Virus record (IMG/VR): IMGVR_UViG_3300034101_001295
Location: 1 to 39,991 of that record
DNA length: 39,991 nucleotides
Source of the DNA: a virus
Direction: 5' to 3' (one strand)
Shown here: positions 7,957 through 32,204 of the stretch, one piece after another
How the letters are laid out: every line of letters starts with the position of its first letter
Position numbering within the stretch: the stretch's first letter is position 1
Notes under the pieces: generated by a model
What the model was told of the DNA's origin: nothing
The model's input: only the letters and a program-made list of their open reading frames with translations
Database searches by the model: none
Position numbers and translations under genes: made by a program

Positions 7957-8016
7957 CTCCCTCCCGCCACGCAGCGCAGTGCTCCCACCTCCTCCGGGTT
8001 GCGCGTGGCGGTTTTA

Positions 8017-8348: not shown

Positions 8349-8398
8349 GACGAAGGTCCACACGATTCCTTTTAGCAGCCCTTTTAAGGCCCTCAAAA

Positions 8399-13058: not shown

Positions 13059-13060
13059 AA

Positions 13061-13955: not shown

Positions 13956-14030
13956 CCTGATGGCTTTCCGAGCGTTTCTAGCGCGTTCTAGCGTGACCGC
14001 ACGGTTAACGAACATTTTTCAGGAGCGGCG

Positions 14031-14702
14031 ATGAGCGAGAGATGCGATGTGTGTGGCAGGGATGACGGGTGGCACGACTTGCGTACTCATTCGTGGCAGG
14101 GTGAAACGCAAGCGTATTTGCTGAGTTCCACGCTGGACGATCCCAATACGGGGAACGTCGAGACAGAGGCGCACATGATGTCGGCTCCGATGGAGATCGG
14201 CATCGAATGGAATCCGCGAACGGACGAGATCAAGACGGCCTATTCGTCGGCGCCGATCACGCTACGCGATCCGGGCGTGCAGGTGGATACGGTGACGATC
14301 ACGCGCGCCGAGCCGGAGCGCAAGCATGTCAGCGATGCGGCAGCAAAGGTTTACGAGCAATGGGCCTGTGGTGGCGGAATGCCGTTAGACGACTTTGAGA
14401 GTTTGCATGCCGGTATGGGCACTGTCCTCCTCACCGTCGCCGAGCACGACGCGCTGCGGGCGGAGGTGGAGAGGTTGACCGACGAAATCAAACGACTGCG
14501 AAAGGGGAAGGATGAAAGTAGATTGGGAACTAGTCGCAGTGGCGTTAATGCCTGCAATTCTGTTCGCGGCGATGTATCTCGGCTTCTGGTTGGGGAAGCT
14601 CATACCACTGCCAATTTAGACCCCCGCCTGGGAACGCAGCAACCCGACGGCGCACCGTGCGAGCCGATGAGTGCGCGCAAGTGGCGGTGGGGGGTGCTGT
14701 GA
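14031..14702 (+). CDS. Zinc-ribbon and coiled-coil protein of unknown function
   Basis: This 223-residue protein starts behind AGGAG five bases before ATG 14031. Its N-terminus CDVCGRDDGWHDLRTH could bind zinc. A helical part follows (AAAKVYEQWACGGG), then a short coiled coil (EHDALRAEVERLTDEIKRLR, about 143-164). The last 60 residues are Ser/Thr/Pro-rich and share their DNA with an out-of-frame membrane microprotein (14512-14619). The stop overlaps the next start as TGATG. No family is recognised. Confidence 0.6.
   Translation: MSERCDVCGRDDGWHDLRTHSWQGETQAYLLSSTLDDPNTGNVETEAHMMSAPMEIGIEWNPRTDEIKTAYSSAPITLRDPGVQVDTVTITRAEPERKHVSDAAAKVYEQWACGGGMPLDDFESLHAGMGTVLLTVAEHDALRAEVERLTDEIKRLRKGKDESRLGTSRSGVNACNSVRGDVSRLLVGEAHTTANLDPRLGTQQPDGAPCEPMSARKWRWGVL
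14512..14619 (+). CDS. 35-residue membrane microprotein, out of frame inside the previous gene
   Basis: ATG 14512 follows the ribosome-site-like AAAGGGGAAGG. The frame reads MKVDWELVAVALMPAILFAA, then MYLGFWLGKLIPLPI, a clean single membrane span with Trp/Tyr at the borders. It overlaps the long gene in a different phase. The strong hydrophobic pattern and ribosome site argue for translation. The host gene's low-complexity C-terminus at this point fits a region shaped by the other frame. Function unknown. Confidence 0.45.
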   Translation: MKVDWELVAVALMPAILFAAMYLGFWLGKLIPLPI

Positions 14703-14974
14703 TGTCGTGTCACGACTGCATGTTCTTGCTGAGAGATAAGCCGCGTGAGTGGAAGTCACCAGGGCAATGCACGCGCTATCCGACATGGGTTTCGGTCGCT
14801 CACAACCATTTTTGCGGGGAACAACGAGACGCGCAGGCAATCTACGAGAATCGAAATGGCGTGCGCGATGATGTGATGGCCCAAGAGGGGCGGCAGCAAA
14901 CCCGCGCAATTGCGGCCGAGAAGCTGGTCAAGGAACTGCGCGCTCGGATCAGGGAATTGAAGGCGGCTAAATGA
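14702..14974 (+). CDS. Small Cys-motif protein
   Basis: A 90-residue protein from ATG 14702. CHDCMFLLRD, GQCTRYPTW and HFCGEQRD give four Cys ligands spaced as in small phage zinc proteins of the CxxC, GxCxRYP, WCGE type. The C-terminus is helical and basic (RAIAAEKLVKELRARIREL). It sits at the end of the early region, and its stop overlaps the next start as ATGA. The role is unknown. Confidence 0.65.
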   Translation: MSCHDCMFLLRDKPREWKSPGQCTRYPTWVSVAHNHFCGEQRDAQAIYENRNGVRDDVMAQEGRQQTRAIAAEKLVKELRARIRELKAAK

Positions 14975-15147
14975 CCGACTGGCCAGCCATCATCGCCCGC
15001 CTGGAACGCCGCAAGGTCAACATTCGCGCGTTGCTCAATGTTTCACGCGTCACGCTCTGGTACTGGCGAACAGGCCGACGCAAGCCCAATGGCGACCATG
15101 CGGTACAAATTATTTTGATGGATAGGGCAAATGCAAACCACTGTTAA
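14971..15147 (+). CDS. 58-residue HTH protein at the early/late boundary
   Basis: The protein starts MTDWPAIIARLERRKVNIRA, then LLNVSRVTLWYWRTGRRKPN and GDHAVQIILMDRAN, a minimal Cro-like helix-turn-helix. It is the last gene before the packaging operon. An 8-base-arm inverted repeat spans its stop codon, so it may control itself or the late operon. ATG 14971 overlaps the previous stop as ATGA. Confidence 0.7.
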   Translation: MTDWPAIIARLERRKVNIRALLNVSRVTLWYWRTGRRKPNGDHAVQIILMDRANANHC

Positions 15148-15160
15148 CGCATACAGTGGT
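15137..15160. promoter_or_regulatory. Inverted repeat before the late operon, possible operator
   Basis: ACCACTGT (15137-15144) and ACAGTGGT (15153-15160) are perfect arms with an 8-base spacer. CCGCA-T-TGCGG (about 15175-15185) and GTTAT-N7-ATAAC (about 15194-15210) follow before the GTG at 15211. No clear -35/-10 pair was found, so a late promoter here is uncertain. Confidence 0.5.
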
Positions 15161-15210
15161 ATGGTGCGCGGATACCGCATTGCGGGACAACGGGTTATCG
15201 TTGAAATAAC

Positions 15211-15612
15211 GTGCCTGCACCGCTCGGAAATCAGAACGCCAGCAAGGGCCGCATGTTCGCGGACGCGATCAATCGCGCGCTCCAACTGCCGGGGCGGCAC
15301 GAGCGGCTGAAACGACTTGAGGCCATCGCCGACAAGCTCGTGACGCTGGCCGAGGACGGCGACATCCAAGCCATCCGTGAGGTGGCCGACAGGCTGGACG
15401 GTAAGCCTAAGCAGGCGGTAGAGCATGCCGGAGAGGGAGGCGGCTCCATTGGCATTACCACATCCGGCACTATCGACCATCGAGTCCTACCAGCGACTGC
15501 AGAATTCCTTGGCGCACTGCTCAGGGCCGGAGCAGATACACCATCTGCGCAACCTGATGCGGACGGATCTGTACTACCTGCTCCGGTACGGTCTGAGGCG
15601 GGCGGATCTTGA
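15211..15612 (+). CDS. Terminase small subunit-like packaging protein
   Basis: A 133-residue protein from GTG 15211. MPAPLGNQNASKGRMFADAI, then NRALQLPGRHERLKRLEAIA, AEDGDIQAIREVADRLDGKP matches a small-terminase-like family found directly before large terminases. It would recognise the packaging site. Its last 62 residues are encoded in DNA that also encodes the N-terminus of the large subunit in another phase. No ribosome site is obvious before the GTG. Confidence 0.7.
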   Translation: MPAPLGNQNASKGRMFADAINRALQLPGRHERLKRLEAIADKLVTLAEDGDIQAIREVADRLDGKPKQAVEHAGEGGGSIGITTSGTIDHRVLPATAEFLGALLRAGADTPSAQPDADGSVLPAPVRSEAGGS

Positions 15613-16972
15613 ACGGCAATGGTTGCTTGACCGATGCCGCGAAGTCCAGGCGCAGCCGAATGGAATGCTCGACCTGTGGGCGCGCGAGCACTACAAGTCC
15701 ACGATCATTACGTTTGCGCTCACTATTCAGAATGTTCTATGCGATCCCGAAATTACGGTCGGGATATTCAGCCACACGAGGCCGAACGCAAAGGGCTTCC
15801 TGCGGCAGATTAAGCGCGAGTTCGAGGGCAACGCGCTCCTTCAGGAGCTATTCCCCGATGTGCTTTGGGCGAATCCATCGAAGGACGCTCCGACGTGGTC
15901 AGAGGACGGCGGTCTCGTCGTCCAGCGCAAGGGCAACCCCAAGGAAGCAACCATCGAGGCGCATGGACTCGTCGATGGACAGCCGACCGGCAAGCACTTT
16001 GCGCTTCTCGTCTACGACGATGTCGTCACGATTGACTCCGTGACGAGCCCCGAGATGATCCACAAGACGACAAACGCGCTCGCACTGTCCTACAACCTTG
16101 GGGCTGATGGTGGGCAGCGTCGGATGATCGGCACGCGCTACGACTACGCGGACACGTACCGCGAGGTGATCGGGCGTGGATCGTTCGAGGTGCGCAAGCA
16201 TGCGGTCACGGTGGACGGCACCGAGGACGGTGAGCCGGTGCTGCTGAGTCGGGAGAAGGTCGCCGAGAAGCGGCGCGACATGGGCGCGTATGTGTTCTCG
16301 TGTCAGATGCTGCTCAACCCGAGTGGTGACAAGTCGCGTGAGTTCAAACGTGATTGGCTGCGCTGGTATCAGAGCTCACTCAGCGGCGAGGGCATGAACG
16401 TCTACATCCTCGTCGATCCGGCAGGCGAGAAGAAGAAAACATCCGACCGCACCGCGATGTGGGTGGTTGGCCTGAACAACGACGGCAACTACTACCTGCT
16501 CGACTTCCTGTACGACCGGCTGAACCTGACCGAGCGTGCGCGCGAACTCATGCGCCTGCACCGCAAGTGGCGACCGATGCGCGTCGGCTATGAGAAGTAT
16601 GGCAAGGATTCCGACATCGAGGCGGTCAAGATCGTCCAGGCGCACGAGAACTATCGCTTCGACATCGTGCCGCTTGGTGGCACGCTCAAGAAAGAGGACC
16701 GCATCCGACGCCTCGTGCCGTTGTTCGAAGCGGGCAAGGTGTACGCACCTCCGACGATGCATCGCACGCTCTCAGACGGGCGCACGATAGACATCCTTGA
16801 GCAGTTCTTGGTCGAGGAATACGACCGATTCCCCGTAGGCGCGCACGACGACGGTATGGACTGTCTCGCGCGGATCACGGACCCGGACATGAACGCGACG
16901 TTCCCGCTGTTGGACGCGGAGCCGGAGCGGTATAGCAAGCGCAGGACTAACGGCAGCGCATGGGCTGCGTAG
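15425..16972 (+). CDS. terL: Terminase large subunit
   Basis: This 515-residue packaging motor has an N-terminal ATPase with a deviant Walker A AREHYKST (86-93) and Walker B ALLVYDD (193-199). The C-terminal nuclease has Asp331 in YILVDPAGEK and a late Asp in VGAHDDGMDCLARI. It would pump DNA into the prohead through the portal and cut it. The start at 15425 makes a 188-base overlap with the small subunit gene. A later ATG at codon 45 would lose conserved-looking sequence (DLYYLLRYGLRRADLERQWL), so at least part of the overlap is genuine. Confidence 0.92.
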   Translation: MPEREAAPLALPHPALSTIESYQRLQNSLAHCSGPEQIHHLRNLMRTDLYYLLRYGLRRADLERQWLLDRCREVQAQPNGMLDLWAREHYKSTIITFALTIQNVLCDPEITVGIFSHTRPNAKGFLRQIKREFEGNALLQELFPDVLWANPSKDAPTWSEDGGLVVQRKGNPKEATIEAHGLVDGQPTGKHFALLVYDDVVTIDSVTSPEMIHKTTNALALSYNLGADGGQRRMIGTRYDYADTYREVIGRGSFEVRKHAVTVDGTEDGEPVLLSREKVAEKRRDMGAYVFSCQMLLNPSGDKSREFKRDWLRWYQSSLSGEGMNVYILVDPAGEKKKTSDRTAMWVVGLNNDGNYYLLDFLYDRLNLTERARELMRLHRKWRPMRVGYEKYGKDSDIEAVKIVQAHENYRFDIVPLGGTLKKEDRIRRLVPLFEAGKVYAPPTMHRTLSDGRTIDILEQFLVEEYDRFPVGAHDDGMDCLARITDPDMNATFPLLDAEPERYSKRRTNGSAWAA

Positions 16973-21021: not shown

Positions 21022-21459
21022 ATGGCAGTGACGATCAGCCTCTACAACCACACCGCAGCAAAGTTCGCTGATGGCAGCTACGCGGTTGGCGATAGCTACG
21101 TGATCAACCTCTATACCGCGTTCACGTTCGACGCGACCGCCACGACGAAGGCGGGCGCGGAATCGGGCGCAACGCAGGTGTCTACGGCATTCGGCTACAC
21201 GCAGAACGCCAAGACGCTGACCGGTGTGACCGTGACGACGGTGACGACGAATGATGCGACCTTCGACGCGGGTGATGTGACGTGGACCGCGAGCGGCGGC
21301 AGCATCACGGCGAGTCATGCGCTGATCTACAACGACACGGACGCGAATGATCCGCCTGTGGCGTACATCAATCTCGATGGTTCGCAGTCTGCCGGTGACA
21401 CCACGGAGTTCAAGATCATCTGGAATGCGTCCGGTATCGTGACGTTTACCGTCGCCTGA
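21022..21459 (+). CDS. Probable structural (decoration) protein
   Basis: A 145-residue protein, Thr/Ala-rich and beta-strand-like (KTLTGVTVTTVTTNDATFDA, then NDPPVAYINLDGSQSAGDTT). Similar small proteins follow portal genes in related phages and decorate heads or tails. It overlaps the DUF115-like gene by one base (TGATG). The many Thr residues make it a possible acceptor for the glycosyltransferases nearby; this is inference. Confidence 0.55.
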   Translation: MAVTISLYNHTAAKFADGSYAVGDSYVINLYTAFTFDATATTKAGAESGATQVSTAFGYTQNAKTLTGVTVTTVTTNDATFDAGDVTWTASGGSITASHALIYNDTDANDPPVAYINLDGSQSAGDTTEFKIIWNASGIVTFTVA

Positions 21460-22232
21460 TGACGATCCACTTCAAACCCTGCCTAGACGCAGCAGCGCGG
21501 CTCGTCAACATCCGCTCGGCGTTGCTTCGTGGCCTGGACACGCTGCCGGTGCTGCCTGCGCATGGCCGCGAGATGGTGCTGTGCTGCTACGGGCCGAGCT
21601 TGGCGGATACGCTGGAGTCTGCGGCGGGTGACGTGTGGAGCGTGAGCGGCGCGCATGATGTGCTCCTTGAGGCGGGCATTGTGCCTCGCGCGCATGTCGA
21701 GTGTGATCCGAGACCGCACAAGGCCGAGTTTTTGCGCCGTCCGCTCAAGGACTGCACGTACTTCATCGCGTCGTGCTGCGACCCTGCGGTATTCGATGCG
21801 CTCAAGGGTTACGAGGTCGTGCTGTGGCACTCAGACCAGTCCGACGAGGAAGCGGTGTATGTGGCGAGCGTGGACAATGGCGCTGCGCTGGTGCTTGGTG
21901 GCACCACTGTCGGGACTCGTGCGCTGTCTGTCGGTAGTTGCCTTGGCTACCGCAATTTCCGCGTGCTTGGTATGGATTGCAGTTTTCGTGATCGTCAGCA
22001 CGCTGGAGCACATCCTAACGACGATCCGAACGAGATAGAGGTGAGTGTCTACGGGCGGTCGTTCAAGACGACGAAAAACCTCATTCTTCAGATGCAAGAC
22101 CTTCTGCGGCATGTGAGCGACACGCAATCGTATCGGTACGTGCTGGAGGGCGACGGGCTGATGCAACACGTGGCCGACAACATCAAGCACTCGCGAGTGA
22201 GTGTGGCGCGTAGAGAGAGGCAGGCAGCATGA
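21459..22232 (+). CDS. MptE/DUF115-like protein (Maf-type glycosylation family)
   Basis: This 257-residue protein shows the MptE-like/DUF115 pattern: LCCYGPSLADTL (41-52), in place of the nucleotide-binding GNGPSL, then VWSVSGAHDVLLEAGIVPRA and HVECDPRPHK. A middle block LVLGGTTVGTRALSVGSCLG and FRVLGMDCSF follows. The family includes motility-accessory factors needed to glycosylate flagellin with nonulosonic acids, and a pterin diphosphokinase, so the chemistry is not certain. It lies just after the portal and a Thr-rich protein, between virion genes. Both ends overlap neighbours. Confidence 0.7.
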   Translation: MTIHFKPCLDAAARLVNIRSALLRGLDTLPVLPAHGREMVLCCYGPSLADTLESAAGDVWSVSGAHDVLLEAGIVPRAHVECDPRPHKAEFLRRPLKDCTYFIASCCDPAVFDALKGYEVVLWHSDQSDEEAVYVASVDNGAALVLGGTTVGTRALSVGSCLGYRNFRVLGMDCSFRDRQHAGAHPNDDPNEIEVSVYGRSFKTTKNLILQMQDLLRHVSDTQSYRYVLEGDGLMQHVADNIKHSRVSVARRERQAA

Positions 22233-22597
22233 CATTCCAAGTCGGTGACATCGTGCGCAAGGCAGGAGCCAATGACAACAGCATCACATACTGCGTTCAG
22301 GAAGTGGGCGACGAGTACGGGATCGAGCTAGTTAAGGTGGATGATCCGAGGGCGGATGGCTGGTGGGAACATCAGTTTTGGGAACTTGCGCCGGATGTGC
22401 GCGACGATGCCAGGACGGCCGAGGCGCAGGAACCGAAGCCGATTGTCGAGCAGGATTCCAAGGAACCGGACCCGGTATTGCTGGCGCTCAATGAGAAGCT
22501 GACGCTTGCGGCTGCTGCGGTCATCCACGGTGACAAGGACGCGATCAACCTCATCACGGACGCGCTGGTAGACGTTCGGACGGCCATCGAAGCATGA
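22229..22597 (+). CDS. 122-residue protein of unknown function
   Basis: An N-terminal beta part resembling a small barrel (MTFQVGDIVRKAGANDNSIT, then YCVQEVGDEYGIELVKVDDP, WWEHQFWELAP) is joined by an acidic linker to a C-terminal helix pair (DPVLLALNEKLTLAAAAVIH). ATGA overlaps join it to both neighbours. Probably virion-associated by location. No family is recognised. Confidence 0.55.
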   Translation: MTFQVGDIVRKAGANDNSITYCVQEVGDEYGIELVKVDDPRADGWWEHQFWELAPDVRDDARTAEAQEPKPIVEQDSKEPDPVLLALNEKLTLAAAAVIHGDKDAINLITDALVDVRTAIEA

Positions 22598-23733
22598 ACA
22601 TCCTCCAGGAATTGCAGAAGCTATCGCGCGGGTTGCAACCGAGGACTGCGCCTGTGCCGCTGGTGTGGCCGAGCATTGGCCCAGTGGGTCATCTGTCGTC
22701 GGACCACGGCGTATACATCAACACGGCGTATCGCAATCCCATCGACTCCATGCTGCGAGATCAGGCCAAGATAGACCTGTTGGCAGCGGATGTGAGCGAT
22801 GGGCGATTGCCTGCCGAGGCATTACTGGCCGCATCGAAGCGGGTATCGGACACGACCGATGCTGTGCGAGCGATCAAGCAGATGCAAGGCGCGATTACGT
22901 CGTTCAATGATGTGATCGATGCGCGAGGGAATGGGCAGTATTTCGACTACTTCGGCGTCAAAGCATCGCAGACGACCGTTGCGAATAACTGGTCATCTTT
23001 CCTGCGTACAAACGGCAATCCGACTGCGGCGAGCTACAGCAACATCCCAGGCGGCGGACGCATGACGAGCGCGACGACGGGCGCGGTTCCGATACCGGTG
23101 ACTATCGGCGGCTCGGATCACTTGTACCTGACGAACGCGGCAGCGAACCATGTGACCGGTTCAAACGTCCACATGTACGTGGATGTGCTGGTTTCAGCGG
23201 GCAACATTTCGGCGACATCGGCCACGTCTCAGAACATCAGCACGACATCGCTCTCTCGCTGGACATCCGGCGAGGGGCTGGCGATGACGCTGGAGGTCAC
23301 GGCGGCGCTCGGGGCGACAGCGGCGAATATCACGATCAGCTATACGGACCAAGCCGGGAATACGGCGAACAGTACCGGCGCGATTGCGTTGACGACGAGC
23401 GCAGCGACGGGTCGCCTCGTGCCTGTCCTCGATGGTCCGATGATCCGACTCGCAACCGGCGACTATGGTGTACGCACAATCGAGGGCTGCATCCTGTCGG
23501 CGTCGATGACGGGGTCGGGTGTTATGGCGGCGCTGATCTACAAGCCGCTGGTGGTGTGCCCGACGCTGACGGTTAACCTGTGGAACGAACGCAGCACGCC
23601 TGCGCAATTGTCTGGCATCAAGCAACTGACATCGGCGGTCGGAGGAGAATTGCCATTCGTCGGATCGTTCGTGCTCGCCTCTACAACGAGCACGGGAATA
23701 ATCTTGCAGTGGCTGGAGTTCGTTTACTCATGA
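22594..23733 (+). CDS. Tandem paralogous virion protein, copy A
   Basis: A 379-residue protein with a helical N-terminal domain (about 1-110: MNILQELQKLSRGLQPRTAP, then VSDGRLPAEALLAASKRVSD) and a Ser/Thr/Gly-rich beta C-terminal domain (GGSDHLYLTN, WTSGEGLAMTLEVTAALGAT, ISYTDQAGNTANSTGAIALT, VLDGPMIRLATGDYGVRTIE). The next gene is a clear paralogue of almost equal length. Likely a head fibre, tail or decoration protein. Start ATG 22594 overlaps the previous stop, and its stop overlaps copy B as ATGA. Confidence 0.65.
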   Translation: MNILQELQKLSRGLQPRTAPVPLVWPSIGPVGHLSSDHGVYINTAYRNPIDSMLRDQAKIDLLAADVSDGRLPAEALLAASKRVSDTTDAVRAIKQMQGAITSFNDVIDARGNGQYFDYFGVKASQTTVANNWSSFLRTNGNPTAASYSNIPGGGRMTSATTGAVPIPVTIGGSDHLYLTNAAANHVTGSNVHMYVDVLVSAGNISATSATSQNISTTSLSRWTSGEGLAMTLEVTAALGATAANITISYTDQAGNTANSTGAIALTTSAATGRLVPVLDGPMIRLATGDYGVRTIEGCILSASMTGSGVMAALIYKPLVVCPTLTVNLWNERSTPAQLSGIKQLTSAVGGELPFVGSFVLASTTSTGIILQWLEFVYS

Positions 23734-24875
23734 TCCTCGACGAACTGCGCAAGGTCGCCAGCGGATTGCAGGGCAAGTGTGCCCCTGTGCCGTGGGGAAT
23801 CGACGGCATGGGCGAGTTGGGCTACATGACGCGCGAGCGTGGTCTGTACGTAAATCCAGCCTATAGCCGCTCGTTGGATTTGGCGCTGCGTGAGAGCGTG
23901 GAGTACGAACGCACGGCGCGGGAAGTATCGAACGGACGATTCGGCGCGGATGTCTTGGCACCGATTGCGCGTCGTATCTCGGATCATTCGGACGTGATCC
24001 GAACCATGAAGCAGATGCGAGCGGCGCTGACATCCTGGGATCAAATTGTCACCGCGATCAATGCGGGGAAGTCGGCGCAGGTGTCATTTCTACGGTCATC
24101 CAGTGCCGTAAGTGCCAGTTTTTGGCAATTTGAATTTGCGTTAGCGGGGCTTCCGACTGCGGGCACGTTTGCAACGATTCCGGGCGGCAGTGCTTTCACG
24201 GGATCATCGGTCGGATCGATGGTGTCTCCTGGAACTGCAAACATCGGCGGCAGCGACCATTGCTATCTCACTAATGTTTCGCTGCACTCTCAGCCCTCGC
24301 AGATAAACCAGCAAATCGTGGGCGTTGTCGATTTGCTCGTCGGAGCTGGCAGTATTAACGCAGCAACGGGCACCAGCCAAGACATCTCGACGACGGCTTT
24401 ACCAAGGTGGACGACCGGCGAAGGGCTTTGCATGTCGCTAGTCGTGACTACCGCTTTGGTTGGCGGTACGGTTCCGACGATTGCGATCACGTACACGGAT
24501 CAGGCAAACAATACCGGCAATTCTACGGGCACAATCTCGGTAACGACCGCCTCGCCCGCAGGACGCATGCTGCCTGTGCAAGACGGGCCGATGATCCGAT
24601 TGGCCTCGCCAGATACCGGAGTACGGAAAATCGAGGCATGCATCATTGCAGGCACGATCACATCCGGCGTGATGGCGGGGATCATCTACAAGCCGATCAT
24701 GTTCATGGGGGTGCTGGCGAATCAATCCGTTGAGCGCACGACACCCTCGCAGGCGGGAGGAATGCGCAGGATTACGGAAACTGCGGGCGCGTTGCCTTGC
24801 TTGACGATGATCCGGTTTGCGTCAAACACGAGTAACACGCTTTTAGGCGGCTTCCTTGAATTCGCCTGGGGCTAG
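23730..24875 (+). CDS. Tandem paralogous virion protein, copy B
   Basis: This 381-residue protein aligns along its length with copy A: MILDELRKVASGLQGKCAPV for the start, then GGSDHCYLTN, TSQDISTTALPRWTTGEGLC, ITYTDQANNTGNSTGTISVT, QDGPMIRLASPDTGVRKIEA and IIYKPI. The variable regions are about residues 115-180 and the C-terminal 60. Start 23730 overlaps copy A's stop. The frame extends upstream to 23580, but that part is a shadow. Divergent duplication suggests two related virion components with different partners. Confidence 0.7.
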   Translation: MILDELRKVASGLQGKCAPVPWGIDGMGELGYMTRERGLYVNPAYSRSLDLALRESVEYERTAREVSNGRFGADVLAPIARRISDHSDVIRTMKQMRAALTSWDQIVTAINAGKSAQVSFLRSSSAVSASFWQFEFALAGLPTAGTFATIPGGSAFTGSSVGSMVSPGTANIGGSDHCYLTNVSLHSQPSQINQQIVGVVDLLVGAGSINAATGTSQDISTTALPRWTTGEGLCMSLVVTTALVGGTVPTIAITYTDQANNTGNSTGTISVTTASPAGRMLPVQDGPMIRLASPDTGVRKIEACIIAGTITSGVMAGIIYKPIMFMGVLANQSVERTTPSQAGGMRRITETAGALPCLTMIRFASNTSNTLLGGFLEFAWG

Positions 24876-24878
24876 CGC

Positions 24879-25529
24879 GTGAGCACGAATCGCTTCGACA
24901 ATCAATGGCTGGCATTTAAGGGCACGACGACCGGGTGGGATGGGTCGCTGGTCGCGGGGTCGGACAATGATGTGCCGATGCCGATTGCGGTGGCGACCGC
25001 AAGTGGCGTAACGATCAATGCGCCCGCAGCGAATATCACGATTGCAGGCGTTGCGCCAAGCGTTGCAGCGGGCAAATCGATCTCAGTTCCGGCTGCGAAC
25101 ATTACGCTTGCAGGGGTTGCGCCGTCGATCAGGGTAGGCGCATCGGTCGCAATCCCTGCGGCAAACATCGCCATAGCAGCGGTCGCGCCATCCGTATCGG
25201 CAGGCAAGTCGGTAATCGTTCCTGCGGTGGATGTGGCAATCGCTGCGCTTGCTCCGACTGTTTCTGCGGGTGCTGGCGTTGGCGTGACGGTCGATGTGCC
25301 GTCCGTGGATATAGCGGTTTCGGCCGTGGCACCGACCGTAAGCGCATCTGCCGTGCAGGAATTGATCGGACGGCGTAGGCGCAGTCGCCGCCCGATCTAC
25401 GAGCTTGACGGCTCAAAAAAAAAGTGTCGAGCGAGGCGCTGCGGCAAGAACGCGAATACATCGCTTCTATCGACAGCATCTACGATCTATTGGCAGAGCA
25501 GCAAATACTGCGAGAGGCTGTGGAACTAG
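24879..25529 (+). CDS. Five-repeat virion protein, zero-frame product
   Basis: From GTG 24879 the frame encodes an N-terminal part (MSTNRFDNQWLAFKGTTTGW) and five hydrophobic 22-residue repeats (43-156; consensus G-x-x-V-x-V-PAANI-x-IA-x-VAPSV). A basic segment follows, GRRRRSRRPIYELDGSKKK. It then reads into an unconvincing tail (CRARRCGKN to the stop at 25529). A run of nine A at 25415-25423 precedes the tail, and the -1 frame continues as a much better protein. The zero-frame product would have 216 residues, the frameshift product 251. Both may be made. Confidence 0.65.
   Translation: MSTNRFDNQWLAFKGTTTGWDGSLVAGSDNDVPMPIAVATASGVTINAPAANITIAGVAPSVAAGKSISVPAANITLAGVAPSIRVGASVAIPAANIAIAAVAPSVSAGKSVIVPAVDVAIAALAPTVSAGAGVGVTVDVPSVDIAVSAVAPTVSASAVQELIGRRRRSRRPIYELDGSKKKCRARRCGKNANTSLLSTASTIYWQSSKYCERLWN
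25005..25346 (+). repeat. Five tandem 66-base coding repeats
   Basis: Each unit encodes 22 residues, for example GKSISVPAANITLAGVAPSI plus two more; the last unit carries a four-residue insertion. Units share PAAN or PSVD and VAPS or VAPT. DNA identity is moderate, so the array is old or selected at protein level. The alternating pattern suggests stacked beta strands, as in fibre shafts. Confidence 0.75.
25415..25424 (+). promoter_or_regulatory. Probable -1 frameshift site, A AAA AAG
   Basis: In zero frame the codons are TCA AAA AAA AAG TGT, containing the heptamer A AAA AAG (25418-25424), the same slippery sequence as in E. coli dnaX. A -1 slip continues with GTG (Val) into the open frame ending at 25633. 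The nine-A run could also permit transcriptional slippage. Only a short hairpin (AGCG-AGG-CGCT, about 25430-25440) is seen downstream. Confidence 0.65.
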
Positions 25530-25633
25530 CAACCGCCTCGCAGCGTAAGACGATCTCGAACCTGATGACCACCATCACGCGGCGGGTGGACGAGATCGAA
25601 GAAGACGAAGCCGTAATCGTTCTCCTAACGTAA
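25424..25633 (+). CDS. C-terminal extension of the repeat protein in the -1 frame
   Basis: The frame reads VSSEALRQEREYIASIDSIY, then DLLAEQQILREAVELATASQ, RKTISNLMTTITRRVDEIEE and an acidic hydrophobic end, 69 residues of well-formed helix. It has no ribosome site before GTG 25424, since the upstream bases are the A-run, so separate initiation is unlikely. As a fusion it gives ELDGSKKK-VSSEALRQ, a continuous basic-to-helical transition. An ordinary frameshift mutation or sequencing error in the A-run is the main alternative. Confidence 0.6.
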   Translation: MSSEALRQEREYIASIDSIYDLLAEQQILREAVELATASQRKTISNLMTTITRRVDEIEEDEAVIVLLT

Positions 25634-25644
25634 CAAGGACACAC

Positions 25645-26505
25645 ATGAGCGAATTGACGCAGCAAGAGCAAGCATTCTTCGAGACGCAGGGCGAGACGGC
25701 ACCGGAAGCGCCGGAGGCCGAGACGCCGGTCGCCGAGGCGACGGAAGTGGCAGAGACGCAACCGGAGGCGACGGAGGCAGCAGAACCGGCCAAGCCTAAA
25801 CTGGTGCCGCTGGAGGCGCTGCATGAGGCTCGGGCGCAGGCGAAGGAACTGAAGTCTCAGCTTGCTCGGCTCAATCAGGAGCGGCAGGAGTTCGCACATT
25901 GGCGCGCGCAGATCGAATCCCGGTTGAATCCGCAGGCGCAGGCGCAGGTTCCGGCGTTCGAGGAAAACCCGGCCGAGAATCTACGGCACGAAGTGACGAC
26001 GGCCAAGGAAGAACTCGCAGCCATCAAGCGGCAAAGCGAGGACAGCGCGCGACAGGCTCAGTTTGCCAACTGGTATCAGACGCAGGCGGCGGCGTTCTCG
26101 CAGTCGCAGCCCGACTTCATGGAAACCTATTCGGCGTTCATCGAATCCAGGCAGACCGAACTGGCCGACGCAGGAATGACGCCGCAGCAGATCGTCGCCA
26201 AGGTGCAGCAGGAAGAACAACTGCTCGCGTTGACTGCCGCGCAGATGGGCGTGAACCCGGCGCAGATGGTCTATCAGACCGCGATTGCCAAGGGCATCAA
26301 GCCCAAGGCAAAAGCGCCTGCGGAAAATGCGACACAAAAGCTACAAAACGTGGCAGATGGGATAAAATCGAGCAAGTCGTTGTCACAAGTACCAGGGCGT
26401 CCGGTTCCGGCAATGACTGCGGAGTACGTGGCAAATATGTCGGACGCAGATTTCAAGAAGTTCGCGGCCAATTGGGATGACAACATTTCCCAACTGAGCG
26501 CATAA
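25645..26505 (+). CDS. Putative scaffolding protein
   Basis: This 286-residue protein sits directly before the capsid gene. The N-terminal 55 residues are very rich in Glu/Ala/Pro/Thr (ETAPEAPEAETPVAEATEVA), followed by coiled coil (ALHEARAQAKELKSQLARLN). A helical middle has QARFANW-like QAQFANWYQTQAAAFSQSQP, and the C-terminus is helical (MTAEYVANMSDADFKKFAAN). Charge, helicity and position match scaffolds that shape the prohead and leave. AAGGA precedes ATG 25645. Confidence 0.75.
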   Translation: MSELTQQEQAFFETQGETAPEAPEAETPVAEATEVAETQPEATEAAEPAKPKLVPLEALHEARAQAKELKSQLARLNQERQEFAHWRAQIESRLNPQAQAQVPAFEENPAENLRHEVTTAKEELAAIKRQSEDSARQAQFANWYQTQAAAFSQSQPDFMETYSAFIESRQTELADAGMTPQQIVAKVQQEEQLLALTAAQMGVNPAQMVYQTAIAKGIKPKAKAPAENATQKLQNVADGIKSSKSLSQVPGRPVPAMTAEYVANMSDADFKKFAANWDDNISQLSA

Positions 26506-26581
26506 GCTGCCGAGGCTCTAACTCGGAATCGCCCCGGAGGCGTTAACACCGGACAGCCGCCCGAGGCTATAAACCGGATTC
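26506..26581 (+). repeat. Three tandem 25-base hairpin repeats before the capsid gene
   Basis: Units at 26506-26530, 26531-26555 and 26556-26581 share the pattern GC-(C/T)-(n)-CCG-(A/G)-(A/G)GC-n-TAAC-n-CGGA. Unit 1 folds as CCGAG-N7-CTCGG and unit 2 as CCGG-N11-CCGG, while unit 3 has only a CCG/CGG stem. They begin at the scaffold stop codon and end about 80 bases before the capsid start. They may act as RNA processing, stability or attenuation elements. Confidence 0.6.
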
Positions 26582-26662
26582 GTTGCGTCCCGCGTGAGTG
26601 GACGAATCGCAAGACGAAGCGTGATCGCGTCAACCCGATTCTCCATTCACAAAGGAAACCTC

Positions 26663-27739
26663 ATGGCAACGACAGATTTTGGAGTGGGTCACCCACTCGC
26701 CGTCAAGCTGTGGTCCCGCAAGCTGTACGAAGACGTGGTAGGCAAAGGCTACTACGGGCGCTTCATCGGCAAAGGTTCCAACAGCCTGTTTCAGATCAAG
26801 GAAGAAACCAGCAAAGGCCCCGGTGACCAGATCACCATCGGCCTGCGTGGATTGCCGGTCGGCGCGGGCATTCAGGGTGACGCAACCCTGGAGGGCAACG
26901 AAGAAGCTCTGCTGACCTACAACGACGCACTTCTCGTCAATCAGCTTCGCCATGCGTTCCGCACGGGCGGCAGGATGAGCGAGCAGCGTGTGCCGTTCAG
27001 CGTCCGCGAAGAACTTCGCAGCGCCGCCGAGGACTGGTGGTTCGAGCGTCTTGAGGTCAGCATCGCCAATCAACTCGCGGGCTACGCCGACCAATCCGAC
27101 ACGCGCTACACCGGCAACAACGCGGCGCTGGAGCCGTCCACGGTATCCGGCACCAAGCGGATTCTGGTTGGCGGTGGGCACGATGCCGAATCGTCTCTGT
27201 CGGCAACGACCACGCACGCGATCAAGTTGTCCGATCTGGACAAGGCCGCTGCGATTGCCAAGACGCAGACGCCTCGCATTCGTCCGATTCGGGTCGACGG
27301 CAAATCGCTGTACGTGTGCTTCCTGCACCCGTACCAGATCAACCAGCTTCGACAGGACGCCAGCACGGCGGGCAACTTCTTCGACGTGCAGAAGGCGCAA
27401 CTGACGGGCGGGAAGATCAGCGACAACCCGATCCTCACCGGTGGCGAGTTCATCTACAACGGCGTGATTGTCTACGAGTGGCCCTACCTGCCCGTGGTCA
27501 AGAGCACCGTCTCGTCCTCGACCTCGTACCGTCGTGGTGTGTTCTGCGGCGCGCAGGCGCTGGCAGTGGCGGTCGGACAGAACGGCTCCGCGACGAAGAT
27601 GTCGTGGGAGGAAGAAATGTTCGACTACGGCAACCAACTGGGCGTGTCGGCCGGGATGATCTTTGGCGTTAAGAAGACGAAATTCAACTCGTCCGATTAC
27701 GCCACGATCGTCATGTCCGGTTACGCCCCGGCCCCATAA
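26663..27739 (+). CDS. Major capsid protein, N4-gp56/DUF4043-type
   Basis: This 358-residue protein matches the N4 gp56 family of HK97-fold capsid proteins: GHPLAVKLWSRKLYEDVVGK then FIGKGSNSLFQIKEETSKGP, GDQITIGLRGLPVGAGIQGD, TLEGNEEALLTYNDALLVNQ and LRHAFRTGG near the N-terminus. LYVCFLHPYQINQLRQDAS and VYEWPYLPVV come later. It would form the icosahedral head. ATG 26663 is chosen for AAAGGAAA just upstream; the frame extends to 26594 without conserved sequence. The leader contains three tandem hairpins. Confidence 0.9.
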   Translation: MATTDFGVGHPLAVKLWSRKLYEDVVGKGYYGRFIGKGSNSLFQIKEETSKGPGDQITIGLRGLPVGAGIQGDATLEGNEEALLTYNDALLVNQLRHAFRTGGRMSEQRVPFSVREELRSAAEDWWFERLEVSIANQLAGYADQSDTRYTGNNAALEPSTVSGTKRILVGGGHDAESSLSATTTHAIKLSDLDKAAAIAKTQTPRIRPIRVDGKSLYVCFLHPYQINQLRQDASTAGNFFDVQKAQLTGGKISDNPILTGGEFIYNGVIVYEWPYLPVVKSTVSSSTSYRRGVFCGAQALAVAVGQNGSATKMSWEEEMFDYGNQLGVSAGMIFGVKKTKFNSSDYATIVMSGYAPAP

Positions 27740-27751
27740 GGAGATAGAGAC

Positions 27752-28234
27752 ATGGCTGCTAGAACTCTGACTTACACCTTGGGGTATGCTGGACCGGTTC
27801 GTGAGGTCCATGCGGGCCTGAACGTCCTGACCTTCGATTGCAACTCGGGGACGACCAAGTTCGGAACGGTGTCGGATATGTTCCTGCTCGGTAAGATCCC
27901 GAATGGCGCGGTGGTCACGGGTGGCGGGATCACCTTCGGAACGCAGGGCAACGCGGCGAGCACGTTTACGCTGCTGCTCCTGTCCGACGAAGGCGCTGGC
28001 ACGTTCAGCACGTTGGCAACACTGCGTGCAGCGGGTGGCTCGATCACGGCGAACGCCAGCACGGTGCAGTCGTACAGCATCGTGGGGCCGGTAACCAAGA
28101 TCAGCTATTCGGATGATCGAGCAGTGCAGAACGCCGTCCTGGCGTTGAACTGCACGGTCGGGCCTTCGGAGACTGCCTCGTTCAGTTTCCAAGGGTTCCT
28201 GACCTACGTCACAGACGGTCGAAGCACGACCTAA
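27752..28234 (+). CDS. Probable head decoration protein
   Basis: A 160-residue beta-rich protein (VLTFDCNSGTTKFGTVSDMF, then GKIPNGAVVTGGGITFGTQG, ASFSFQGFLTYVTD) right after the capsid gene, with AAGGAG before ATG 27752. Similar small proteins follow N4-gp56-type capsid genes and may decorate the head or line the tail joint. It precedes the TPR-glycosyltransferase by six bases and is a possible substrate; that is inference. Confidence 0.6.
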   Translation: MAARTLTYTLGYAGPVREVHAGLNVLTFDCNSGTTKFGTVSDMFLLGKIPNGAVVTGGGITFGTQGNAASTFTLLLLSDEGAGTFSTLATLRAAGGSITANASTVQSYSIVGPVTKISYSDDRAVQNAVLALNCTVGPSETASFSFQGFLTYVTDGRSTT

Positions 28235-28240
28235 TCTGAG

Positions 28241-29611
28241 ATGAGCGTCATTCAGCAGACGCTTGAGCGCGCCCTAGACCTCCATAAACAGGGGGACTAT
28301 GGGCGCGCTGCCCATATGTATAACTGCGTGCTGAACCTGTCTCCGTTCCACGAGGGGACGCTGTATCTGCTCTCCGATCTCTATCTGCGGCAGGAATACT
28401 CCGGCCTCGCCATCAACCTGCTAACAAACCTGCTCGACCGCAACCCGTCGAACGCGCAAGCTTGGTGCAACCTGGGCGTCGGGTTCCGCAAGGAAGATCG
28501 CTACGACGAAGCAATCAAGGCTTGGAATCGTGCACTCGCCATTGAAGGCGACACGAGCGAAGTGTGCTCGAACATGGCGACGTTGTACTCCGACCGGGCG
28601 CAACCGGACACCGCGTTGAAGTGGTTGCGGCGTGCGCTGAAGTGCGACAGCACGAACGTCCATGCTCACTGGTCGATGGGGCTCGCACTGCTCACGCAAG
28701 GCAAGTGGGCAGAGGGTTGGGACAAGTACGAATACAGGCAGCAACTTCCGACCTGGGACCGCAGGCTATCGATTGACGTTCCGTGGTGGGATTTCGAGCC
28801 GACCGACCATCTCTACATTCACGGCGAGCAGGGTGTGGGCGACGAGATCATGTTCATGTCGTGCGTGCCGGATGTGCTGCCGCTTGCCAAGCAAGTGACG
28901 ATAGAACTCAACCCGCGTGTGTGCGAGATCGCGCGCAAGACGTGGCCGCAGATCCGGGTCATCTCAGAGCCTGACGACGACAAGACCTACACAGCGAAGA
29001 TCGCAATCGGGAGCCTTGCAGCGCGTCTACGGCGCTCGGTGGATGCGTTCCCCGGTACGCCGTACTTGAAGCCTGACCCGGAACTCGTGGAGCACTACAA
29101 GGCGCGTCTCACCGCTATCGGTCCGCGTCCCTGGGTGGCGCTCGCATGGCATGGTGGCACGAAGCAGACGCGGGTCAAGGATCGGTCGCTATCGCTGGCC
29201 GACCTCGATCCGATCCGCAATCGGTTCACCTGCGTCTCGGCGCAATACGAGCACACGAATCCGGTGCTGGCGCAGCAGCGCGAGGAAGCCGGGCTCGTGC
29301 GTCTGGACAACCTGTGCGTCGGCGAGGATCTTGCAGCGCAGGCGGCGCTGTTCGCCGCAGTCGATTACGTGGTCACGGTTCAGCAGACGGCGGTCCATGT
29401 AGCCGGTGCTGTCGGGGCGAAGACCTACGCGATCATCGGTCCCGCGCCGCACTGGCGCTATGGACTCACGGGTGACATGCCGTGGTATCGGTCGGTGCAA
29501 CTGTGCCGGGCTAAGAACGGTTGGGCAGAGCAAATCAATTTCGTGGAGCAGTCCATTGCTGATCAGTCAGGAATACGTCGAGCAGAACCGACGAATGCAC
29601 GAGCGGCCTGA
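28241..29611 (+). CDS. TPR-containing glycosyltransferase
   Basis: This 456-residue protein has about four tetratricopeptide repeats in residues 1-150 (ALDLHKQGDYGRAAHMYNCV, ALAIEGDTSEVCSNMATLY, WLRRALKCDSTNVHAHWSMG). A GT-B-like domain follows, related to the TPR/OGT-type or family 9-type transferases, with HGEQGVGDEIMFMSCV at 194-209 and WVALAWHGGTKQTRVKDRSL. The TPR part could bind protein acceptors. Related proteins attach sugars to Ser/Thr or extend glycans. Donor and acceptor are unknown. It lies among head genes and its end overlaps the methyltransferase gene. Confidence 0.8.
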   Translation: MSVIQQTLERALDLHKQGDYGRAAHMYNCVLNLSPFHEGTLYLLSDLYLRQEYSGLAINLLTNLLDRNPSNAQAWCNLGVGFRKEDRYDEAIKAWNRALAIEGDTSEVCSNMATLYSDRAQPDTALKWLRRALKCDSTNVHAHWSMGLALLTQGKWAEGWDKYEYRQQLPTWDRRLSIDVPWWDFEPTDHLYIHGEQGVGDEIMFMSCVPDVLPLAKQVTIELNPRVCEIARKTWPQIRVISEPDDDKTYTAKIAIGSLAARLRRSVDAFPGTPYLKPDPELVEHYKARLTAIGPRPWVALAWHGGTKQTRVKDRSLSLADLDPIRNRFTCVSAQYEHTNPVLAQQREEAGLVRLDNLCVGEDLAAQAALFAAVDYVVTVQQTAVHVAGAVGAKTYAIIGPAPHWRYGLTGDMPWYRSVQLCRAKNGWAEQINFVEQSIADQSGIRRAEPTNARAA

Positions 29612-30056
29612 ATACGGCGTTATCGGGCAGACCTACGCGCATATTGTCAGCGGCTTGGCAAATCAGTACCGAACGGCGTCGATCCTCGACTACGGCTGCG
29701 GAAAGCGGACGCTCGAAGCGGCGCTCGGCTACCCGATTTGGAACTACGATCCGGCGATTGAAGGACTCGACGAGACGCCGAAGCCGCGCGACATCGTGAC
29801 TTGCACCGACGTGCTGGAGCACATCGAGCCGGAATGTTTGGATGCCGTGCTGGACGACATGCGCCGATGCAGTTTGCAAGTGATGATGGCTGCGATCACC
29901 GTGGTGCCGGCGAAGAAGCTCCTGCCTGATGGAACGAACCCGCACAAGATCTGCGAGCCGTGGGAATGGTGGCACGAGCGTCTAAGCATGCGCTGGCGGC
30001 TGAAGAACTTCGTCGATATGAATAAGCGATTCGTCTGGATCGGCACGCCGCGATGA
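29556..30056 (+). CDS. SAM-dependent methyltransferase
   Basis: A 166-residue class I methyltransferase-like protein: motif I SILDYGCGKRTLEAAL, then NYDPAIEG and VTCTDVLEHIEPECLDAVLD, as in small phage methyltransferases. The start TTG 29556 is chosen because GGAG lies seven bases upstream and it keeps LLISQEYVEQNRRMHERPEY. ATG 29595 is the conservative alternative. It overlaps both neighbouring glycosyltransferase genes, so a sugar (for example O-methylation) is a plausible substrate, by context only. Confidence 0.75.
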   Translation: MLISQEYVEQNRRMHERPEYGVIGQTYAHIVSGLANQYRTASILDYGCGKRTLEAALGYPIWNYDPAIEGLDETPKPRDIVTCTDVLEHIEPECLDAVLDDMRRCSLQVMMAAITVVPAKKLLPDGTNPHKICEPWEWWHERLSMRWRLKNFVDMNKRFVWIGTPR

Positions 30057-30694
30057 ACATCGTATTTTTCGCAGTAGGTGACGAGCACGCCGCAATGGCC
30101 GAGCTTGCTGCGGAAGCGGCGCGGATCACGAATCCCGCCGCCGACCTGTACGTACTTACAGATATTCATACGCAGTTCAGGACGTTGACGCCGGTACGTG
30201 GGCACTGCTCGAAAGAGACGCTCATGTACGACCGCACGATTGCGCAGTATCACTTTCTGCGGGATCGGCGCGAGGCGATCTTCTTGGATTCCGACTGTGT
30301 GGTGCAGCGCGACTTGACGGGCGCCTTCGCCGGGCCGGTGGCCGTAACGGAGCGGATACCGCCCAAGAACGCAGCCGGGCAGATATACAACGGTGGCGTT
30401 CTCTACGGATCAGGGCATGCAGGCGTGGCGTTCTGGCTCTCGTGGTGCGAACTGTACTGGCTCATCCAGCGAGACGCCTGGGCGTGGTACGGGGATCAGG
30501 TGTTGCTGGCGAAGCTGGTGCCGAACTACACCTCGACGCAGGTTTATCCGTCGCACACGCACAACCTCGTGTTGTCTAGCGCCGTCGAGATCGACGCGCA
30601 CCCGGACGCCTACATCGTCCACTACAAGGGCAAGCGCAAGCACTGGATGCGTGACCATGTGGAAGCGATCAAACAGATGAAGGTGGCCGCATGA
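30053..30694 (+). CDS. GT-A-type glycosyltransferase, family 8-like
   Basis: This 213-residue protein starts MNIVFFAVGDEHAAMAELAA. The metal/nucleotide-sugar DxD motif is in IFLDSDCVVQRD (Asp79, Asp81). IYNGGVLYGSG (111-121) and a late HYKGKRKHW (190-198) match the acceptor-side and HxxGxxKPW-like blocks of family 8 enzymes. It would transfer a sugar from a nucleotide donor. It is coupled to the methyltransferase by ATGA and to the next small gene by ATGA. Confidence 0.8.
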   Translation: MNIVFFAVGDEHAAMAELAAEAARITNPAADLYVLTDIHTQFRTLTPVRGHCSKETLMYDRTIAQYHFLRDRREAIFLDSDCVVQRDLTGAFAGPVAVTERIPPKNAAGQIYNGGVLYGSGHAGVAFWLSWCELYWLIQRDAWAWYGDQVLLAKLVPNYTSTQVYPSHTHNLVLSSAVEIDAHPDAYIVHYKGKRKHWMRDHVEAIKQMKVAA

Positions 30695-30900
30695 GACGCC
30701 GACAGATTTACGCCATCCGAGAGCAGGAAGCCGAGCAACTACGAAGGGAGGTGATCCGAAGTGCGTTCAAAGTCGAAGAAGCCGATGCCAATGCCGGGCA
30801 AAGGCAAGAAGTAAGCACCAGCAGCGTCAATTGTCCGACGTGTGGGAAAGCGCTCCAGCCTCGCGGGGCGCATTTCCACATCCGCGCGTGCAAGGGGTAA
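30691..30900 (+). CDS. 69-residue zinc-finger-like protein
   Basis: A helical, charged N-terminus (IREQEAEQLRREVIRSAFKV) is followed by a C-terminal NCPTCGKALQPRGAHFHIRA plus Cys, giving C-x2-C, His-x-His and Cys ligands for a small zinc finger. ATG 30691 overlaps the glycosyltransferase stop as ATGA. Residues 24-41 are encoded in DNA that also carries a +1-frame basic microprotein with a strong ribosome site. Function unknown. Confidence 0.6.
   Translation: MRRRQIYAIREQEAEQLRREVIRSAFKVEEADANAGQRQEVSTSSVNCPTCGKALQPRGAHFHIRACKG
30761..30814 (+). CDS. 17-residue Lys/Pro-rich microprotein behind an extended Shine-Dalgarno
   Basis: GGGAGGTGATCC at 30746-30757 contains GGAGGTGATC, a ten-base match to the 16S anti-Shine-Dalgarno. 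GTG 30761 follows nine bases after GGAGG and opens MRSKSKKPMPMPGKGKK, ending at TAA 30812-30814. It is in the +1 phase of the zinc-finger gene. The very basic product could bind DNA or RNA. The ribosome site could be a coincidence of Glu-Val-Ile-Arg codons in the other frame. Confidence 0.4.
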   Translation: MRSKSKKPMPMPGKGKK

Positions 30901-30903
30901 GGC

Positions 30904-31521
30904 ATGGCTATTAGCACGTATTCCGAACTCAAGACCGCGATCTTCGCATGGGTCGATTCATCCTCCGGCGACTTCAGCGGCACGACGATTGACGACCTCA
31001 TCTTGATGGCGCACCAGCGGATCGGGCGCGAGGTGCGATGCCGCGAGATGGAGGCCGACATTTCCGCAACCGTCAGTGCGGGCGTGGTCCCGTTGCCTGC
31101 GGACTTCGTGGACCTGAAGTATGCCTACCTGAACAACGAGCAGCCGACCAAGTTTCTACAGAAGCGCACGGCGCGGTTTATTTACGAGCGATACCCGCAC
31201 CGGGATGCTGCCGGGCGTCCTGGCTACGTAGCACGCGAGGGCACGAATTTCATCTTTGGCCCGTACCCGGACAGCGGCACGACGTACAACTTAAAGGGCG
31301 TGTACTGGCGGCGCATGACGTTGACCACGACGCTGACGTTCAACGAAGTGTTCCGCGTGCATCCTGACCTGTATCTGGCGGCATCCGTGGCCGAAGCGAT
31401 CCCGTTCGTCGGGCAGGATGCTCGGTTGCAAGTGTGGGAAGCGAAGTATCAGCAGATCCGCAATGACCTGTTGAACGAGGTGAACACCGAAGGTTATGAA
31501 GGAAGCGAGGTCGAGTTCTAA
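30904..31521 (+). CDS. Head-tail adaptor protein
   Basis: This 205-residue protein resembles the phage adaptor family that docks under the portal. It starts MAISTYSELKTAIFAWVDSS, then IDDLILMAHQRIGREVRCRE, VPLPADFVDLKYAYLNNEQP, and a C-terminal helical part LYLAASVAEAIPFVGQDARL and VWEAKYQQIRNDLL. It would connect portal and tail hub. Its stop overlaps the next start as TAATG, so a glycosyltransferase gene is directly coupled to it. Confidence 0.75.
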   Translation: MAISTYSELKTAIFAWVDSSSGDFSGTTIDDLILMAHQRIGREVRCREMEADISATVSAGVVPLPADFVDLKYAYLNNEQPTKFLQKRTARFIYERYPHRDAAGRPGYVAREGTNFIFGPYPDSGTTYNLKGVYWRRMTLTTTLTFNEVFRVHPDLYLAASVAEAIPFVGQDARLQVWEAKYQQIRNDLLNEVNTEGYEGSEVEF

Positions 31522-32204
31522 TGTATCCGCTGAAAATCTTCTGTGGCTATGACCCGCGCGAGGCGTTGGCGTATCACGTCTGTTGCAACTCGATCATCCG
31601 GCATGCTTCGGTTCCGGTGAGCATCACGCCGCTTGCGCTCAATACCCTGTCGAGCTTCTACACCGAGACGCACAAGGGCACGAATCAGTTCGTTCACTCG
31701 CGTTTCCTCGTGCCGTATTTGTGCGGGTTCCAGGGTCGCGCGCTGTTCATCGACGGCGACATGATCTTTCGGGATGACGTGGCGAAGCTGTTCGACCTGA
31801 TGAGCAACGATGTGGATGTGGCCGTTGTCCAGCACGACTACAAGACCAAATACCCGACCAAGTATTTCGGGCAGAAGAATGAGGACTACCCGCGCAAGAA
31901 CTGGAGCAGCGTTGTCCTGTGGAACTGCGGCAACCATCCCAATCACATCCTGACGCCGCAATACATCGCGGAGAAGGACAGCAAGTTTTTGCACCGTTTC
32001 TCGTGGCTCAAGGACGAGCGCATCCAGGCATTGCCGCCCGCATGGAACCATCTCGTTGACGAGTACGACCACAACGACGACGCCAAACTGTTGCACTTTA
32101 CGCTGGCGATTCCGGCGATCTCGTCTTATGAGGACTGCGACCATTCGACCGAGTGGTGGGACGAGTACCACAAGGTCGTGGAGGTAAACGAGCGTGCCAC
32201 TTAA
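31521..32204 (+). CDS. GT-A-type glycosyltransferase, phage type
   Basis: This 227-residue protein begins LKIFCGYDPREALAYHVCCN, typical of a phage-encoded glycosyltransferase group. It has FVHSRFLVPYLCGFQGRALF and the DxD motif IDGDMIF (Asp78, Asp80), then SSVVLWNCGNHP and a late LHFTLAIPA and EWWDEYH. It would use a nucleotide-sugar. It sits between the adaptor and gp10-like tail genes, separate from the other transferases, yet in the same operon. Confidence 0.8.
   Translation: MYPLKIFCGYDPREALAYHVCCNSIIRHASVPVSITPLALNTLSSFYTETHKGTNQFVHSRFLVPYLCGFQGRALFIDGDMIFRDDVAKLFDLMSNDVDVAVVQHDYKTKYPTKYFGQKNEDYPRKNWSSVVLWNCGNHPNHILTPQYIAEKDSKFLHRFSWLKDERIQALPPAWNHLVDEYDHNDDAKLLHFTLAIPAISSYEDCDHSTEWWDEYHKVVEVNERAT

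Follow-up and report, generated by a model that had tools for sequence, protein, structure and literature searches.

What is the role of glycan-building enzymes whose genes stand among the structural genes of a virus? The question is raised by the linear virus record IMGVR_UViG_3300034101_001295 (IMG/VR; 39,991 bases), which is called the window below. Its virion operon is of the podovirus type, with head and tail genes recognized by Pfam and PHROG matches. The original prediction described five enzyme genes in this operon, coding for an MptE/DUF115-like protein, a glycosyltransferase with TPR repeats (TPR-GT), an S-adenosylmethionine (SAM) methyltransferase (MT) and two glycosyltransferases with DxD motifs, and suggested virion proteins as their targets. 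All five open reading frames (ORFs) are real and intact, and their families are matched by Pfam, the one at 30053 below the threshold and with a DxD motif. Their neighbours are, as described, portal, capsid, adaptor and tail genes (P22_portal, 4e-107; scaffold; Phage_capsid_3; SU10 adaptor; nozzle-like Hc3). Because TPR-GT and its partner enzymes recur in hundreds of related metagenomic phage contigs, and in those examined nearly always behind capsid genes, these phages probably sugar-coat their own shells, by a route that is probably undescribed for viruses.

Gene order behind the capsid gene

A capsid-profile scan of IMG/VR gave 80 loci. Counts were made on 55 of them, which differ in their capsids and extend for 2.5 kb or more downstream. 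TPR-GT is present in 42 of these 55 relatives and starts at a median of 521 bases past the gene for the major capsid protein (MCP). MT is found in 37 and the transferase of the 31521 type in 33, in the order TPR-GT, MT, 31521-type transferase. The core is capsid–cement–(TPR-GT–MT–GT8-like transferase)–adaptor; the cement protein, which the original prediction did not mention, belongs to the true unit. The MptE-like gene and the first DxD transferase (30053) are optional and absent from most relatives. The 30053 type is present in few, and an FkbM methyltransferase, a radical-SAM protein or other enzymes replace this transferase or MptE elsewhere. The expected co-occurrence of the five enzyme genes with the structural module is thus borne out for TPR-GT, MT and the 31521-type enzyme, and not for the other two. 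An MptE homologue (33% identity) lies within the cassette of the relative L039. The adaptor is the right-hand limit of the slot in most relatives; in the window it stands between the two GT8-like genes.

The named, metagenome-assembled relative ctDrO704 (MW202512) has an identical gene order. The isolated relatives KLEP18-1, Mae-JY35 and RHph_Y1_10 carry the head genes and lack the block, and no cassette was found in capsid-related prophages of sequenced genomes (52 genome loci). The cassette needs 7 to 10 state changes on the capsid tree and has therefore been repeatedly gained or lost. Two relatives, L063 (13165–13632) and L047 (3847–4320), have a dCMP/cytidine-deaminase-like ORF between TPR-GT and MT (8e-14 for L063), as well as a radical-SAM gene behind the GT8-like enzyme. 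The capsid genes of L106 (JAHREI010000013, titled Bacillus subtilis SK6B4) and of L107, from the alphaproteobacterial Pseudochrobactrum kiredjianiae, are nearly identical, and the Bacillus-titled contig looks like contamination.

The link to the capsid gene was also found without any capsid reference. A scan with the TPR-GT profile detected at least 596 relatives; among the best 80, 54 loci were distinct, new and preceded by 1 kb or more of sequence. TPR-GT lies directly behind an MCP gene in 53 of them, the capsid being Phage_capsid_3 in 41 and SU10_MCP in 12 (PF17236, 1e-93); one locus has neither. When a TPR-GT of the SU10 lineage was used as the query, the best 80 of about 600 matches gave 50 distinct loci. 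The SU10 capsid gene directly precedes TPR-GT in 48, and the adaptor lies downstream in 46 of 46. Over both scans the MCP gene is immediately upstream in 101 of 104 distinct loci (approx. 97%), and the two capsid families are unrelated. No isolate in the phage collection searched carries a full-length TPR-GT, the metagenome-assembled ctDrO704 being the only match at 80 per cent coverage or more; partial matches in isolates sit outside the head genes (a match in Synechococcus BUCT-ZZ01 was left out).

This regularity bears on the possibility that the enzymes are passive cargo, i.e. that unrelated genes accumulate between the head and adaptor genes, at a site prone to recombination, and that the glycan genes have no role in the virion. 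This slot is mosaic, with HNH endonucleases in some relatives, and in two loci it has been refilled with non-homologous glycan enzymes. In L099, the space between cement and adaptor holds GT_PLOD (2e-29), GT2, Methyltransf_24 and a weak GT2 match. L019 (IMGVR_UViG_3300043773_000651, 10481–16404) has the MptE block and nozzle as in the window and a different capsid module, behind whose capsid gene stands a methyltransferase–GT9 fusion. The substitutes are, however, other glycan enzymes and not random genes. Moreover, the block recurs in order in dozens of relatives, and dN/dS is 0.08–0.35 for all enzymes compared with relatives, i.e. they are under purifying selection and hence maintained. Ordered recurrence and purifying selection make the block more than a product of chance and, with the near-constant capsid adjacency, render passive cargo very unlikely. 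L099 itself is JAHEYD010000007, a phage contig in an archaeal metagenome-assembled genome titled Nitrosotalea, probably through a binning error.

Table 1. Position and assignment of the genes discussed in the window.
Feature	Position	Strand	Basis of assignment
Major capsid protein (MCP)	26663..27739	+	Phage_capsid_3 PF13252 7.5e-63; phrog_334 4.5e-73
Capsid cement (decoration) protein, jelly roll	27752..28234	+	profile and AF2 fold matches; 160 residues
TPR-glycosyltransferase (TPR-GT)	28241..29611	+	TPR E 4e-16; weak C-terminal GT9 match 1.1e-3
Class I SAM methyltransferase (MT)	29556..30056	+	Methyltransf_23 PF13489 2.1e-6; phrog_24759 1.4e-18
Accessory DxD glycosyltransferase, GT8-like, optional	30053..30694	+	PF01501 0.003, below cut-off; FLDSDC motif
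SU10-type adaptor	30904..31521	+	PF24175 2.1e-26
Core GT8/GT24-like glycosyltransferase	31521..32204	+	PF01501 1.7e-6, above cut-off; phrog_28018 2.6e-44
Accessory MptE/DUF115-like protein (sialyltransferase/Maf-like fold family)	21459..22232	+	PF01973 6.4e-14
TerL	15425–16972		
Integrase	2350–3336		

The variable block around MptE also contains two paralogous neighbours (22594–23733 and 23724–24875, about 380 amino acids each, with no Pfam or PHROG match). They may be proteins of the head or of fibres, and the MptE-like enzyme could have them as acceptors. At the left end of the window, the ORF 583–1683 matches ART-PolyVal (2.6e-5, below cut-off) and, marginally, other ADP-ribosyltransferase catalytic domains; judged by these matches it is a possible ADP-ribosyltransferase.

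The cement protein and its exchange with the enzymes

The gene just after that for MCP encodes an outer cement protein of the capsid, of the GP4/Pam1 type. Compared with solved structures, its profile matches the virion-associated protein of GP4 (2.4e-8) and the cement protein of Pam1 (1.8e-5). Its AlphaFold2 (AF2) model (pLDDT 75.7) aligns with the GP4 and Pam1 proteins, with Z scores of 13.7 to 8h89_J and 10.6 to 7eel_H.

The type of cement protein is closely associated with the presence of the cassette. In a nearest-neighbour test from which close relatives were excluded (capsid identity below 58%), the most similar cement protein came from a locus that agreed in cassette status in 70 of 73 comparisons, as against 31/58 for the adaptor, 36/68 for the scaffold, 36/51 for the portal and 49/81 for the capsid protein. 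In the common set (n = 55) there were 24 cases in which only cement was correct and one in which only the adaptor was.

The window and the relative L022 have capsid proteins that are 99 per cent identical. Exactly past the capsid stop codon the identity drops from 0.97 to 0.61 and stays low across cement, TPR-GT and MT; it returns to 0.97–0.99 just before the adaptor and falls again in the 31521 transferase (GTb). Synonymous divergence (dS) is 0.24 in the capsid gene, 1.31 in cement, 0.91 in TPR-GT and 1.34 in MT. The break in both measures indicates that cement and enzymes travel as a single block, with the cement gene inside its left edge.

Two sequence features were considered as markers of the cassette and abandoned. 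Ser/Thr tails at the C-terminus of the cement or capsid protein were rejected since carriers and non-carriers cannot be told apart by their Ser/Thr content. The motif H[AV]G at the N-terminus of cement occurs in 29 of 52 carriers and in none of 27 others, a distribution that amounts to just four independent contrasts on supported branches, too small a number for statistics.

In the lineage of the window, cement would most likely be the acceptor of the proposed glycan. A different virion protein (capsid, adaptor, tail or fibre) could serve instead; this is a variant of the virion-protein proposal, with which its probability overlaps, and we regard it as a realistic though doubtful possibility. 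It is suggested by the SU10-type phages, in which TPR-GT follows the capsid gene and the place of cement is taken by a protein of a different type (107–128 amino acids, no Pfam match), with no cement homologue. The acceptor there must therefore be something else, nearly certainly another virion protein if the model holds in that lineage. The analogous cassette of Caulobacter phage CcrColossus follows tail genes, and PMC12619734 reports mycobacteriophage glycans on the C-termini of capsid and tail-tube proteins. Within the capsid lineage of the window, however, cement tracks the cassette, and capsid, scaffold, portal and adaptor proteins do not.

A possible glycosylation pathway and its alternatives

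The predicted structure of TPR-GT (AF2, pLDDT 93.6, pTM 0.89) consists of an N-terminal TPR superhelix (residues 1–170) and a C-terminal GT-B domain, probably of the GT9 type (184–443). SPINDLY and OGT are the top ranks in Foldseek. With VIA-align, the bacterial OGT (GT41) 5djs gives a Z score of 18.4 (root-mean-square deviation (rmsd) 8.7 over 334 amino acids, the two domains being differently oriented), and the GT domain alone compared with the GT9 structure 3tov gives 16.2 (rmsd 3.3, 244 amino acids). The GT9 profile PF01075 scores 18.8 bits against a curated cut-off of 22 (E 1.1e-3); the motif GxGDE is invariant.

A sample of 61 genomes was drawn from the order to which a Bradyrhizobium genome belongs, and nine of them have a chromosomal homologue of TPR-GT. 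The profile A5 matches G070 (2.9e-67) and G029 (6.1e-51), and flagellin genes lie about 1–4 kb away at most. In two of the nine genomes, both of Rhizobiales, the homologue lies beside flagellin genes; one of the two has it next to two flagellins and a gene that is presumably FlbT-like, all on the same strand. An enzyme of the FlmG class would bind its acceptor through the TPR domain and transfer a nonulosonic acid to Ser/Thr through the GT domain. FlmG binds flagellins through its TPR domain and glycosylates them in the cytoplasm (PMC7591256).

For the other enzymes, most MT homologues share the motif LDYGCG, and the MptE-like protein scores 52.5 bits with PF01973 (cut-off 34.6), a (Y/G)GPSL motif being present in 6/6 sequences of this kind. 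A transferase of the Maf/DUF115 kind would be expected to transfer nonulosonic acid to a surface protein. The genes for MptE, MT, the 30053 enzyme and the 31521 enzyme overlap the preceding gene by 1, 56, 4 and 1 nt, respectively, which makes the predicted translational coupling plausible; MT starts at a TTG codon inside the TPR-GT gene and the 31521 gene shares its 1 nt with the adaptor stop. TPR-GT itself begins 6 nt past the end of the preceding gene.

On these grounds we consider it probable, with some reserve, that the block is a cassette for glycosylation of virion proteins in the host cytoplasm, which places a first sugar on a protein of the capsid surface, most likely cement. The late operon would co-produce capsid, cement and enzymes. 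The TPR half of TPR-GT would capture the newly made, repetitive surface protein in the cytoplasm, and the GT-B half would attach the first sugar to Ser/Thr, drawing on a nucleotide sugar made by the host, in the manner of FlmG on flagellin. The GT8-like enzyme 31521, with the optional 30053 enzyme, would then add further sugars, MT would cap or diversify the glycan, and the DUF115/MptE-like protein, where present, might be an optional further transferase. Extension and capping would take place before or during decoration of the capsid, and the phage may gain a masked capsid or altered adsorption or stability.

Virion proteins as targets, the proposal of the original prediction, are supported, though short of proof, by capsid adjacency, by the co-variation and exchange of cement, by the flagellin-linked homologues and by the lack of GtrA and GT2 genes (see below). 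Several points weigh against the proposal. The nearest-neighbour counts are non-independent events. Cement adjoins the TPR gene, so that part of the co-variation may be linkage; the adaptor, a control at the other end of the block, shows no such co-variation. The TPR-GT scans cover the best 80 of about 600 matches each, and since they show the best matches alone, distant members may behave differently. Cement cannot be a universal acceptor, given the different small protein of the SU10-type phages. GT8 and GT9 are, in addition, typical families of lipopolysaccharide (LPS)-core enzymes.

For this last reason the main rival is modification of the host surface: the enzymes would act on the LPS core or capsule to block superinfection or to help the release of progeny, and their place in the late operon would reflect timing only. 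An integrase on the contig makes temperate life with lysogenic conversion possible, and Pelagibacter phage Mosig and Stenotrophomonas phage DLP6 carry related GT and MT genes away from the head genes, outside structural regions. Against this stand the protein-binding nature of the TPR domain, the adjacency to two families of capsid genes, the exchange of the block together with the cement gene, and the absence of the cassette from all capsid-related prophages of sequenced genomes. The hallmarks of Gtr serotype conversion, GtrA (PF04138) and a GT2/GtrB-like transferase (PF00535), were found in none of 29 records (window and relatives). We consider host-surface modification unlikely.

DNA modification, with transferases and MT acting on modified bases of phage DNA, is extremely unlikely. 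Phage glycosyltransferases are often DNA enzymes (PMC12619734) and two relatives, L063 among them, have the deaminase-like gene in the slot; on the other side, the window ORFs scanned include no recognizable gene for a base hydroxymethylase or for hypermodification of another kind, and neither the TPR-GT9 architecture nor the capsid linkage fits.

Virion-protein glycosylation may extend well beyond the window. A large group of phages, uncultured and with capsids of two unrelated types, would have an FlmG/OGT-like cytoplasmic glycosyltransferase as a regular component of its head module. This enzyme would glycosylate the capsid surface (cement in the lineage of the window), in a dedicated modular pathway exchanged as a unit with the gene of its acceptor. 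We judge this wider proposal to be evenly poised between right and wrong.

Comparison with known systems

Gtr serotype conversion has in common with the present cassette that sugar transfer is encoded by the phage. Combinations of similar activities also exist elsewhere. The original prediction considered the set of activities, together with a NodB-like virion protein, to be new. The latter was rejected, since no window ORF scanned has a NodB-like match in Pfam, and the former exists in the isolated phage CcrColossus and its relatives, in which DUF115-like, GT8-like, class I MT and GT9 genes form one block (gp126–gp131) directly after tail genes. There, however, the GT9 enzyme has no TPR domain, the block is at the tail/lysis genes and not between capsid and adaptor, and the phages are large siphophages; PMC3556154 does not mention a function for this cassette. 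Tetraselmis viridis virus S20, an isolate (L155), has GT-D, DUF115-like, MT, GT2, FkbM and GTa-like genes, mostly annotated as hypothetical, between its capsid and connector genes (6455–12038), and in Roseobacter phage CRP-9 an MT gene lies immediately behind the coat gene. Among named phages, MptE gave no tblastn match, and profile matches only in CcrColossus and S20.

The capsids of phages are generally regarded as naked protein, and only a few isolates are documented to have glycosylated virions. Virion glycosylation was reportedly described in mycobacteriophages by Freeman et al. in 2023. Mycobacteriophages also encode glycosyltransferases, whose presumed targets are capsid and tail-tube proteins, and the available parts of PMC11256854 and PMC12619734 report no TPR-GT. 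Their transferases lie close to the genome's 3' end (PMC11256854), whereas in the present phages the cassette co-segregates with the cement gene; the mycobacteriophages and their hosts are unrelated to those of the window. Virion glycosylation as such is therefore already known, and the FlmG-like, capsid-linked form appears to be undescribed: a literature search did not find an FlmG-like TPR-GT linked to capsid genes over two capsid families. If our proposal is true, capsids with a sugar coat would be common among uncultured viruses, which would matter for the stability and adsorption of phages, for predation and for immune recognition.

The closest parallel is FlmG of Caulobacter crescentus, which combines an N-terminal TPR domain and a C-terminal GT-B domain in one soluble, cytoplasmic protein and acts on a repetitive surface protein; homologues of the phage TPR-GT in Rhizobiales are likewise flagellin-linked. 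Unlike FlmG, the phage enzyme is encoded beside capsid and not flagellin genes, its GT domain resembles GT9, and it is accompanied by its own MT and GT8-like enzyme. The coupling of the enzyme to the gene of a repetitive acceptor parallels that of FlmG and flagellin, and suggests a general design for self-contained glycosylation of surface proteins.

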